Shown piece after piece: positions 10,115 through 13,813 of a DNA stretch of 64,000 nucleotides; within the stretch, counting starts at the first letter, position 1, and each line of letters starts with the position of its first letter. The translations under genes were made by a program, and so were the position numbers. The DNA comes from Microlunatus endophyticus (GTDB taxonomy: Bacteria; Actinomycetota; Actinomycetes; Propionibacteriales; Propionibacteriaceae). The stretch is from positions 186,001-250,000 of the forward strand of contig NZ_BMMZ01000002.1 in NCBI RefSeq assembly GCF_014646195.1. The letters are read 5' to 3'. The notes beneath the pieces are model-generated. The model worked only from the letters and a program-made list of their open reading frames with translations. It was not told where the DNA came from and searched no databases.

Positions 10115-12439
10115 TCAGCTCTGCTGATGGTCGCCGCTCGGCGTCCGCAGCTGCTCGGTGACCCGGCCGCTCAGCTCGCGCTCCACGCCACGCAGCTGCT
10201 CGATGCGCTTCTCCAGTTCGGCACGCTCGTGCTCGGCCTGGGCCAGCGTCCGCTCGGCTTCGGCACGGGCCAGCCGGGTGACCCGGTCGGCCGTCTGCTG
10301 GCTGTCCAGCAGCAGGTTGTACTCGTACTGGCGCAACTCGTCGCCACCGGCCCCGTCGGGAGCAGGAGCGTGCCGCTCGGGCTCGGCCGACAGCAGCTGC
10401 TCGCGGATCTCCTGGACCTGGCGATGGAAGCCGCCGATGGCTGCGTCCACGTCATGGGACAGGGTGTTGAGCCTGGCGACCAGCTCGGAGACCTTTTCGT
10501 GGCCGAGCGACTCCTGCGCCCGCGCCCGGTCCTGGGCTGCGGTCAGTACGTCCAGTGCGGCAACCGAGACCCGCTCCGCAGGGTCGTCGAGGGCCGATGG
10601 ATCCCAGTCAGCCGACGTGGCCGGGGCTTCGTCCTCTGCGTCAACCCGGGCATCCACTCGGGAGTCGATGCGGCCGGCGGCCGGAGCGCCTGCCTGGACC
10701 GGGAGCGGCTTGTTCACGCCATTGGTGCCCGCCGGCTGTCCGGCGCCATCGGTCTGGTCGACGACCCGGGCGACATTGGGCTCGGTGGCCAGCTTCTCCA
10801 GCTCGGCCGCTGCCGGGACCGCGACCGCGGCCGCACCCCCCTCGGCGGGCTTGTGCATCTCGACCGTGGTCCGCAGCGGAACCTCGTGGACCAGGATGAC
10901 CGCGATGAATGCGGCGATCCCGATGATCGCGGCGATCAGGAACAACAGTCCGAAGGTGTCGCCGTACGCGTGGTGCACGATCGTACGCAGCGGCTGCTGC
11001 AGACTGTTGATGTCCAGGTTCATCCCGGCCTTCTTCATCGCTGCCGCCTCGACCCCGGCCTTGGCCTGGTCAGCGGGGGACAGCGACGAGAACGCCGCGG
11101 TGATCTTCTCCGGAACCTTGGTGGCCAGCACCGCGCCGAGGACGGTCACGCCGACCGCGCCGCCCAGCGAACGGAAGAACGAGACTGTCGCTGACGAAGC
11201 GCCGATGTCCTTGACGTCGACCGTGTTCTGGACGGCCAGCACGATGTTCTGCAACATCGCGCCGATGCCGATACCGCCGATCGCGACCCACATGGCGATC
11301 TGCCAGTACGGGGTGCTGTGGTCGAGGAAGTGGCCGAGACCACCGAAGCCGATCAGGAACAAGGTCGCGCCCAGGACCATGACGGGCTTCCACCGGCCGG
11401 TGCGGCTGACGATCTGGCCGCCGATCACCGAACTGAGCAACTGCGCGACGATCATCGGCAGGGTCATCAGACCGGCCTTGGTCGGGCTGTAGCCGGCGCC
11501 GAGCTGGAAGTACTGGGTCAGGAAGGTGCCTGCGCCGAACATGCCGACGCCGACTGCAAGACCGGCGATGATCATCAACGCCGTGGTGCTGTTGGCGATC
11601 ACCCGGATCGGGACGATCGGCTCCGGATGCTTGAGCTCGACGATGATCGCGACGCCCGCCGCCACGACGAACGCAGCGAGGAAGAGGCCGGACTGCCAGG
11701 AGATCCAGTCGTAGTCACTGCCGGCGAAGGTGACCCACATCATCGGGGCCGCTGCGGCGCACGCCAGGAAGAAGGCACCGAAGTAGTCGATCCTGACCTT
11801 GCGCTTCGGGCGGGACGGAAGGTGCATCTTGGCCTGCAACAGGATCAGCGAGATCACCGCCAGCGGCACGCAGACGAAGAAGACCCACCGCCAGTTCCAG
11901 GTCTGGGTGATCCAGCCGCCGACCAGCGGGCCGGACACAGTGGCAACCGCCATCACCGCCCCCATGTAGCCGGAGTACCGTCCCCGCTCGCGCGGGGCGA
12001 TGATGCTGCCCATGATCGCCTGCGTCATGGCCATCAGACCGCCCATCGCGACACCCTGGGCGGCGCGGGCGATCATCATCTGCCAGATCTCCTGCGACAG
12101 GCCGGCACCGACGGATCCCAGCACGAACAGGATGATCGAGAGCTGGATCAGCAGCTTCTGGTTCAACAGGTCGGCCAGCTTGCCCATGATCGGCGTGGAG
12201 ATAGTCATGGCCAGCAGCGACGCGGTGATCACCCAGGTGTACTGGCGCTGGGTGCCGTGCAGATCGGACATGATGGTCGGCAGCGCCGTCGACACGATCG
12301 TCGAGGAGATCAGGGCGGTGAACAGAGCGGCCAACAGGCCGATCATCACCTCGAGGATCTCAGCGTGCGACAGCGGTCCCCCGTCGCGGTTGTGCTCGGC
12401 AGCGATGGCGGGGCTGCGCTCGGCTACAGCTGCGCTCAT
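10115..12439 (-). CDS. DHA2-family (EmrB/QacA-type) drug efflux transporter with long C-terminal coiled-coil tail
   Basis: A 774-residue protein. About residues 20-515 form a 14-helix MFS drug:H+ antiporter: STIVSTALPTIMSDL is the DHA2 motif on helix 1, and PIMGKLADLLNQK and GPLVGGWITQTWNWRWVFF follow. About residues 515-610 are a Pro/Ala-rich linker. The last ~170 residues are charged and helical, with heptad-like runs such as AEAERTLAQAEHERAELEKR. This tail recalls DivIVA/Wag31 coiled coils and is absent from ordinary EmrB proteins. The ATG at 12439 overlaps the stop of the upstream MarR gene by four bases, so regulator and pump form one operon. The substrate is unknown. Confidence 0.88.
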   Translation of the reverse strand: MSAAVAERSPAIAAEHNRDGGPLSHAEILEVMIGLLAALFTALISSTIVSTALPTIMSDLHGTQRQYTWVITASLLAMTISTPIMGKLADLLNQKLLIQLSIILFVLGSVGAGLSQEIWQMMIARAAQGVAMGGLMAMTQAIMGSIIAPRERGRYSGYMGAVMAVATVSGPLVGGWITQTWNWRWVFFVCVPLAVISLILLQAKMHLPSRPKRKVRIDYFGAFFLACAAAAPMMWVTFAGSDYDWISWQSGLFLAAFVVAAGVAIIVELKHPEPIVPIRVIANSTTALMIIAGLAVGVGMFGAGTFLTQYFQLGAGYSPTKAGLMTLPMIVAQLLSSVIGGQIVSRTGRWKPVMVLGATLFLIGFGGLGHFLDHSTPYWQIAMWVAIGGIGIGAMLQNIVLAVQNTVDVKDIGASSATVSFFRSLGGAVGVTVLGAVLATKVPEKITAAFSSLSPADQAKAGVEAAAMKKAGMNLDINSLQQPLRTIVHHAYGDTFGLLFLIAAIIGIAAFIAVILVHEVPLRTTVEMHKPAEGGAAAVAVPAAAELEKLATEPNVARVVDQTDGAGQPAGTNGVNKPLPVQAGAPAAGRIDSRVDARVDAEDEAPATSADWDPSALDDPAERVSVAALDVLTAAQDRARAQESLGHEKVSELVARLNTLSHDVDAAIGGFHRQVQEIREQLLSAEPERHAPAPDGAGGDELRQYEYNLLLDSQQTADRVTRLARAEAERTLAQAEHERAELEKRIEQLRGVERELSGRVTEQLRTPSGDHQQS

Positions 12440-13002
12440 ACGGCAGTCCTCTCCCACTCGGTCATTGGCTGGCTCTCTTGTGTTTCGGTCGGTGTGGTGG
12501 TTCGTTCCGTGGCAACCGCGGTTGTCCTCAGCGGGTCGGTCCCTGCCCCAGCGGCACTCGCGAACTGGTCCACCAGTTCGTCGACGCTGTGCTCGAGCCG
12601 CTGCAGGATCCGGATCGATTGATCCGCGTCCTCCGGCGACCAGTCGGACAGAGTACGAGCGACCAGGTCGAGGGCCCAATCCTCACGCGCCCTCAGGTAT
12701 TCGCGCCCGGTCGGGGTGATCCGGATCCGGCACGCCCGTGCGTCGTCGGGATCGGGATCGCGACTGACATAGCCCTCGGTCTCGAGGGCCGCGACGGCCC
12801 GAGAGGCCACCGACGGCTTGACCCGCAGCTGTTCGGCGAGGTCGCCGAGGCGGGGATCGGTCTCGGAGACCAATCGAAGCAACGCGATCGGCGTTGCCGT
12901 CACGCTGTGCGCCGAGTCCCGGTGGGCGAACGTTCTCGTCACCCGGACCAGCGACACCAGCGCTTCCAGGACGCTTGCCGCCTGGTTACGTTCGATGGTC
13001 AT
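12436..13002 (-). CDS. MarR-family transcriptional regulator of the adjacent efflux gene
   Basis: A 188-residue winged-helix regulator. The core has PRLGDLAEQLRVKPSVASRA as the helix-turn-helix and VSRDPDPDDARACRIRITPTG as the wing. The N-terminal helix and the C-terminal helical tail form the dimer interface. The ATG at 13002 is preceded by AGGAGTTCC, a good ribosome binding site; a start at 13035 would run through the operator. The gene is the first of a two-gene operon with the efflux transporter (ATGA overlap). By analogy with the family it probably represses its own operon and releases DNA on binding a small molecule. Confidence 0.9.
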   Translation of the reverse strand: MTIERNQAASVLEALVSLVRVTRTFAHRDSAHSVTATPIALLRLVSETDPRLGDLAEQLRVKPSVASRAVAALETEGYVSRDPDPDDARACRIRITPTGREYLRAREDWALDLVARTLSDWSPEDADQSIRILQRLEHSVDELVDQFASAAGAGTDPLRTTAVATERTTTPTETQESQPMTEWERTAV

Positions 13003-13021
13003 CGGTAGAGGAACTCCTTTG

Positions 13022-13060
13022 GTTGCTGTAAGCAACTATAGACCTGTGTTGTTGCTTAAC
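13022..13060. promoter_or_regulatory. Candidate MarR operator (two related half-site elements)
   Basis: Twenty bases upstream of the MarR start lies a perfect palindrome, GTTGCT-gta-AGCAAC (13022-13036). A second copy of the half-site, GTTGCTTAAC, begins at 13051. The region is more A/T-rich than its surroundings. Palindromes just before a marR-efflux operon are the usual site of autorepression, but binding is inferred. Confidence 0.55.
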
Positions 13061-13171
13061 GAAACTAACCGCCGACCACTGACAGTTTTCTCAGCTACAA
13101 CTCAGGCCGGCGATCGTACGAACCGGATGCGGGTTCCTGCCGGGTGTTGTCGGCGGCCCACCAGTCGCGAC

Positions 13172-13330: not shown

Positions 13331-13813
13331 TCAGAGTTCGGGGCTCAGTGCGCGGCTGAACCGCTGCAGCAGGGTGGCGAGCTGGGCGAGATCGTCGGGC
13401 TCCCAGGACTCGAGCCGGCTGAGCATCAGCTCGCGACGTCCGACCCGGGAGTTCTCGACGGCGGTCCGGCCGCGTCCGGTCAAGGTGACTAGCCGGGCAC
13501 GGGCATCCTGCGGATCGCGGACCCGAGCGATCAGCCCGAGCCGCTCGAGATCGGCGATCGAACGGCTCAGCGTCGACTTGTGCAGATTGGTGCGGCTGGC
13601 GACGTCGACTGCGCGGACGCCTTGATCATCGGGGTCCAATTCGAGGATCGTTGCCAGCAGCGCATAGCCGGGAGAATCGAGATCGGGGTGGATGTGGCCG
13701 GCGATCCGTTCGGAGAGGCTGCGAGCGCTGCGGAAGAAGAGACTGATCTCGCGTTCGAGGTCGGCCATCGCGGCCGCGCGGTCGTCCGCAATACCGGGCC
13801 CATCGGTTGTCAC
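13331..13813 (-). CDS. MarR-family transcriptional regulator
   Basis: A 160-residue MarR-type winged-helix protein, unrelated in detail to the one at 12.4-13.0 kb. It has RAVDVASRTNLHKSTLSRS as the recognition helix-turn-helix and ARVRDPQDARARLVTLTGRG as the wing. Helical ends form the dimer interface. The start is the GTG at 13813. The gene is divergent from carA, with 151 bases between starts. No target gene is evident beside it: the downstream gap carries only repeats and then the other MarR operon. It may regulate itself or a distant gene. Confidence 0.87.
   Translation of the reverse strand: MTTDGPGIADDRAAAMADLEREISLFFRSARSLSERIAGHIHPDLDSPGYALLATILELDPDDQGVRAVDVASRTNLHKSTLSRSIADLERLGLIARVRDPQDARARLVTLTGRGRTAVENSRVGRRELMLSRLESWEPDDLAQLATLLQRFSRALSPEL

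Follow-up and report, generated by a model that had tools for sequence, protein, structure and literature searches.

A predicted DHA2-type exporter of Microlunatus endophyticus with a conserved C-terminal tail whose second helix resembles the DivIVA/Wag31 coiled coil

Results

A pump gene with a long C-terminal extension

The window, by which we mean the whole 64,000-nucleotide stretch of Microlunatus endophyticus DNA that was analyzed, contains on its minus strand an open reading frame that runs uninterrupted for 774 codons from an ATG at 12439 to a stop at 10115. The parts of this gene and the features next to it are as follows.

10115..12439, minus strand: whole gene (774 aa), predicted DHA2-type MFS exporter plus C-terminal tail (open reading frame, domain matches)
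10895..12439, minus strand: pump part, residues 1-515 (MFS_1 at 35-430; final transmembrane helix to ~516)
10583..10870, minus strand: Pro/Ala-rich linker, residues ~524-619 (predicted disorder, low conservation)
10385..10582, minus strand: tail helix 1, residues ~620-685 (kept within the tail family; no DivIVA likeness found)
10346..10384, minus strand: short Gly/Pro-rich break between the helices, residues ~686-698 (structure model)
10145..10345, minus strand: tail helix 2, residues ~699-765 (resembles the C-terminal coiled coil of DivIVA/Wag31)
12436..13002, minus strand: MarR-family regulator gene, overlapping the pump start (domain match)
13019..13068, no strand assigned: inverted repeat, candidate operator, directly upstream of the MarR gene (sequence only)

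The gene is predicted to encode a DHA2-type drug or metabolite exporter. Pfam MFS_1 matched residues 35-430 (E 1.6e-48; 165.8 bits against a cut-off of 33.4), the NCBIfam EmrB/OtrB models spanned residues ~9-544, with OtrB and EmrB as the closest models, and TIGR00711 was a near miss on residues 31-515 (224.5 bits against a curated cut-off of 230.2). The protein shares with known DHA2 exporters (EmrB/QacA; OtrB, Tcr3, and LfrA models) the MFS_1 domain, a match along the whole pump part, and an operon with a MarR regulator. Whereas the models of these exporters have ~485-565 positions, the window protein carries ~250 residues beyond its pump part, because the last transmembrane helix stops near residue 516 of 774. 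The original prediction of an EmrB/QacA-type pump fused in frame to a long tail was therefore borne out, and the Pro/Ala-rich linker and charged helical segment that it described are present.

The stop of the MarR gene and the start of the pump gene overlap in an ATGA junction, and the pump is in one operon with its own MarR regulator. The inverted repeat upstream has 18-nt arms that are 78% complementary, which makes it a candidate operator. A short repeat-like motif upstream of the MarR gene had no further copies within the window, and a PADLOC scan gave no match. Immediately upstream of the MarR and pump genes is a second MarR-family gene (13331-13813, minus strand), and a second MarR match was likewise seen at several related loci.

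The tail is a conserved and structured part of the protein

We ruled out a frame error or a chance open reading frame as the source of the tail, because the same tail is read in 16 other Microlunatus-group proteins, dN/dS in the helices is low, and third-position GC stays at 0.84-0.92 along the whole gene. Nei-Gojobori dN/dS, calculated for seven pairs, was 0.08-0.31 in the pump, 0.10-0.39 in helices 1 and 2, and 0.27-0.77 in the linker; purifying selection acts on the tail helices and to a much smaller degree on the linker.

When the tail was modeled alone, AlphaFold2 gave confident helices at residues ~620-685 and ~699-765 (block pLDDT mostly >90) and a disordered linker. The same two helices appeared in the model of the whole protein at lower confidence (pLDDT mostly 70-89). 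The helical character foreseen for the tail thus holds, with the amendment that the segment consists of two long helices and not one. Their mutual orientation is unsure (tail model pTM 0.38). A Foldseek search of the PDB gave no match, and a sequence search of solved structures returned a phage short tail fibre as its top match (E 2.9e-4, profile positions 78-121), followed by weak coil matches.

Distribution of the tail

Three tailed proteins are encoded in the window genome, namely the window gene and the genes at G000:C22:8683-10944 and G000:C2:370671-372752, and a search of that genome with the tail alone returned only these three. In the same assembly, two contigs (at G000:C15:7-948 and G000:C22:7-939) open partway through a DHA2 pump gene, which suggests that contigs break where pump sequence is repeated. 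Across 147 genomes of the family, strong tail matches were confined to the genus itself, the Microlunatus group, where they covered 12 of the 15 genomes listed and yielded 17 proteins; the genomes of this group include G059 (Microlunatus flavus) and G130 (M. kandeliicorticis).

A profile built from the Microlunatus-group tails revealed a second tailed lineage in another family, Kribbella, where 30 of 38 genomes carry the tail at E<=1e-8. Further tailed pumps were found at named loci in Nocardioides insulae, two Phycicoccus, and Knoellia koreensis, and two more genomes of one genus have the same kind of tail; a first scan of named genomes for the tail had given no match. The tail is not a feature of all close homologues. 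In Nocardioidaceae-like pumps that are 53-56% identical, 22-26 residues follow the pump, and a 56%-identical pump within the genus Microlunatus has a 21-residue end and no tail, which indicates that the tail is dispensable. We found no report of such a pump-tail fusion in the open-access full-text literature.

The tails vary in length. Some Kribbella proteins (L107, L209, L212-L215, L219) extend helix 2 by extra ~11-residue repeats, for example HLRETARTEAD, and others (e.g., L089, L093, L099) carry a Pro-rich extension behind helix 2 that includes a conserved C-terminal motif, ...NGYP...(R/E)(Q/E)(P/A)FG. At the short end, helix 1 of L058 and L059 (genomes G018 and G098) is reduced to its first motif and fused straight to helix 2, which leaves helix 2 as the part retained.

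Two pump subfamilies carry the tail

The Microlunatus tailed pumps belong to two subfamilies: subfamily A accounts for 12 of the 17, with a MarR gene adjoining in 12/12, and subfamily B for the other five, with a TetR gene adjoining in 5/5. The MarR gene next to tailed A-type pumps is conserved in Microlunatus and Intrasporangiaceae; no adjoining MarR or TetR of that kind was found at six tailed Kribbella loci. When the window A copy was compared with the five B copies, pump parts were 38-40% identical and tails 46-62%, while within B the pumps were 76-88% identical and the tails 41-58%. Seven of eight B-type relatives from other genera end 14-34 residues past the pump, and the eighth has CarboxypepD_reg domains. 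The tail tree was poorly resolved (B tails together, p-AU 0.37; A tails together, p-AU 0.42; neither rejected), so the case for transfer between A and B rests on the pairwise identities and the tailless B relatives. By these sequence comparisons, the tail module is apparently transferable between the two kinds of pump.

The pump tree placed the tailed A pumps from Microlunatus, Kribbella, Intrasporangiaceae, and N. insulae in a single supported group (97/94). Because three pumps from the same order that lack the tail also fall within it, the tree does not polarize gain versus loss of the tail. N. insulae was nested within Microlunatus, which suggests transfer. Other A-type relatives have three CarboxypepD_reg domains, two further tail types, or no tail. 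The presence of different tails at the same junction of homologous pumps marks the pump C terminus as a repeated fusion point.

Helix 2 resembles the C-terminal coil of DivIVA/Wag31

We searched the tail profile against six frames of 394 class and 296 phylum genomes. Its non-pump matches were mostly open reading frames of ~200-500 aa (E 1e-9 to 1e-3), and 45 of the 48 such loci examined were DivIVA, as identified with a profile made from members verified by Pfam. The remaining three were one fragment and two other proteins, which from their sequences we take to be V-type ATPase E-like. All 10 non-pump loci submitted to Pfam exceeded the PF05103 cut-off. With a DivIVA set that had been chosen by similarity to the tail, the DivIVA profile matched 31/31 tails at E<1e-3 (median 28 bits; window tail, 37.7) versus 2/31 reversed tails and 0/310 heptad-keeping shuffles, and hhalign gave probabilities of 97.9% for the whole tail and 98.0% for helix 2 alone versus 9.8% and 25.5%, respectively, for the ATP synthase b control. 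ATP synthase b compared with DivIVA, profile to profile, gave 47%.

The aligned DivIVA region is the coil that follows the DivIVA linker, and one stretch of its repeats is missing from the pump tail. Helix 2 shares with this coil the pattern LL.(S/A)Q.TAD...AR.EA(D/E)R and the end ERA.LE.RIE.LR.(V/F)ERE. From these profile comparisons, helix 2 resembles the C-terminal coiled coil of DivIVA/Wag31. HMM alignments had at one point led us to equate helix 1 with the DivIVA N-terminal coil, an assignment we dropped when helix 1 was matched by 0/45 DivIVAs at E<1e-3 and reached an hhalign probability of 3.6%. The "DivIVA-like coiled coil" of the original prediction consequently applies to helix 2 and not to helix 1.

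The tail does not contain a full DivIVA domain, as the N-terminal domain is missing and scores lie below curated cut-offs. The Wag31 model (NF050102) was the top NCBIfam match of the window tail (E 0.016; 15.1 bits against a cut-off of 260) and spanned model positions 91-238 of 256 only. PF05103 reached at best 21.5 bits against a cut-off of 28 on three other tails (in L200) and had no match in the window protein at E<=1. Lacking the N-terminal domain that defines the DivIVA family, the tailed pump does not belong to it; in DivIVA/Wag31 this domain binds the membrane, whereas the pump is anchored by its transmembrane helices instead.

None of 26 PF05103 proteins from 12 host genomes matched the tail at E<1e-3, and host proteins compared with the tail profile to profile gave 39-44% (helix 2, 44.3%), close to the 47% that ATP synthase b reached against DivIVA. 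This weak match means that the sequence does not indicate direct co-assembly with the host scaffold, and it leaves unsupported the idea that the tail is a recent copy of a host DivIVA. V-type ATPase subunit E coils also scored weakly in the tail comparisons, and the DivIVA signal may therefore be partly that of a generic coiled coil.

Discussion

We put at roughly 45% the probability that these proteins are exporters that gained a cytoplasmic adaptor, whose coil would cluster pumps and, with less certainty, bring them to DivIVA scaffolds. A DHA2 pump would have acquired a flexible linker and two long helices, with the transporter itself supplying the membrane anchor in place of the DivIVA N-terminal domain; a pump with the coil alone already sits in the membrane. 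The coil would bring pumps together with each other and might also draw them to scaffolds at poles or septa, and with this module also present on a second pump subfamily, the TetR-linked one, several pumps would be gathered in one zone. Of the two parts of the proposal, clustering is the better founded, the tail most likely self-associating; docking on DivIVA scaffolds, which the tail perhaps also performs, is the weaker.

Placement of the pump at the pole or septum is no more than suggested by what is described for the DivIVA/Wag31 C terminus in other species. The N-terminal domain of Wag31 tethers the membrane and its C terminus mediates protein interaction and multimerization (PMC12097788). 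A membrane protein that, like the tailed pump, has a cytoplasmic C terminus is RodA of Corynebacterium glutamicum, and this C terminus binds the polar scaffold DivIVA, an interaction mapped to the last 10 RodA residues and the DivIVA N-terminal domain (PMC4285798). Unlike the exporter, RodA is a cell-wall elongation protein, and the abstract of that study mentions no DivIVA-like coil for it (PMC4285798).

The coil could also act independently of poles and septa, simply multimerizing the pump (as a dimer or more) or stabilizing it, in which case the DivIVA likeness would reflect a shared type of coiled coil. The two confident long helices, the weak cross-matches to V-type ATPase subunit E, and the poor match of the hosts' own DivIVAs are all consistent with this explanation, yet the likeness is order-specific (lost in every shuffle and in 29 of 31 reversals), the helix 2 match far exceeds the ATP synthase b control, and DivIVA stood out in a search of every reading frame in several hundred genomes, so that we consider pure self-association possible but on the unlikely side. 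Less probable again is a regulatory tail, in which the helices would bind the cytoplasmic face of the pump, the MarR or TetR protein, or another cytoplasmic partner to gate transport or report substrate load. The regulator genes beside the Microlunatus A and B pumps fit such a role, and CarboxypepD_reg domains and two other tails at the same point are what a modular regulatory site would be expected to show; however, one tail is paired with two unrelated regulator families, the six Kribbella loci have neither as a neighbor, and a long, poorly conserved linker fits tethering better than gating. We give almost no credence to an artefact or neutral appendage, whether from a frame error, read-through, or a functionless low-complexity extension. 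In favor of this view, the linker varies and is rich in Pro and Ala, sequence of such GC often contains long open frames, and one pump of the same genus has no tail, but the tail is conserved across several genera and its helices show the low dN/dS given above.

A broader extension of the adaptor proposal, which we regard as doubtful, would cast these pumps as DivIVA counterparts embedded in the membrane. A mobile DivIVA-C module, exchanged among pump subfamilies, would have lost its own membrane-binding domain and taken the exporter as its anchor, bringing efflux into the polar or septal scaffold, and the pump C terminus would be a general socket for spatial or regulatory modules in actinobacteria.

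Drug exporters are usually assumed to be distributed over the membrane. Here a known pump family carries a scaffold-like module that is conserved and apparently transferable. Were a coil of scaffold origin to position or cluster the pumps, efflux could be focused at sites of new membrane and wall, and the tail would be a removable handle on whether pump position affects resistance or export. Since several unrelated modules are joined to homologous pumps at one junction, spatial or regulatory control of actinobacterial export could be sought there.

The other tails are of several kinds. The A-type pumps L170, L172, L173, and L183 have two further types of tail, and the two tails submitted to Pfam gave no match; one type ends ...KERKxQxAAAxYxAxxGKH, and the other carries ...CERLRRLGLSEDQIARVLG. 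The DHA2 pumps L190, L296, L297, and L290 have three CarboxypepD_reg (transthyretin-like) domains past the last transmembrane helix, at the same junction of a homologous pump as the window tail. On A-type pumps these domains occur in Streptomyces-like genomes and in the Microlunatus-group genomes G018 and G098, and they are also found on one B-type pump of another family. They form three beta-sandwich domains, in contrast to the helices of the window-type tail. CarboxypepD_reg folds are usually extracellular; with a 14-helix topology, those in these tails would be cytoplasmic.
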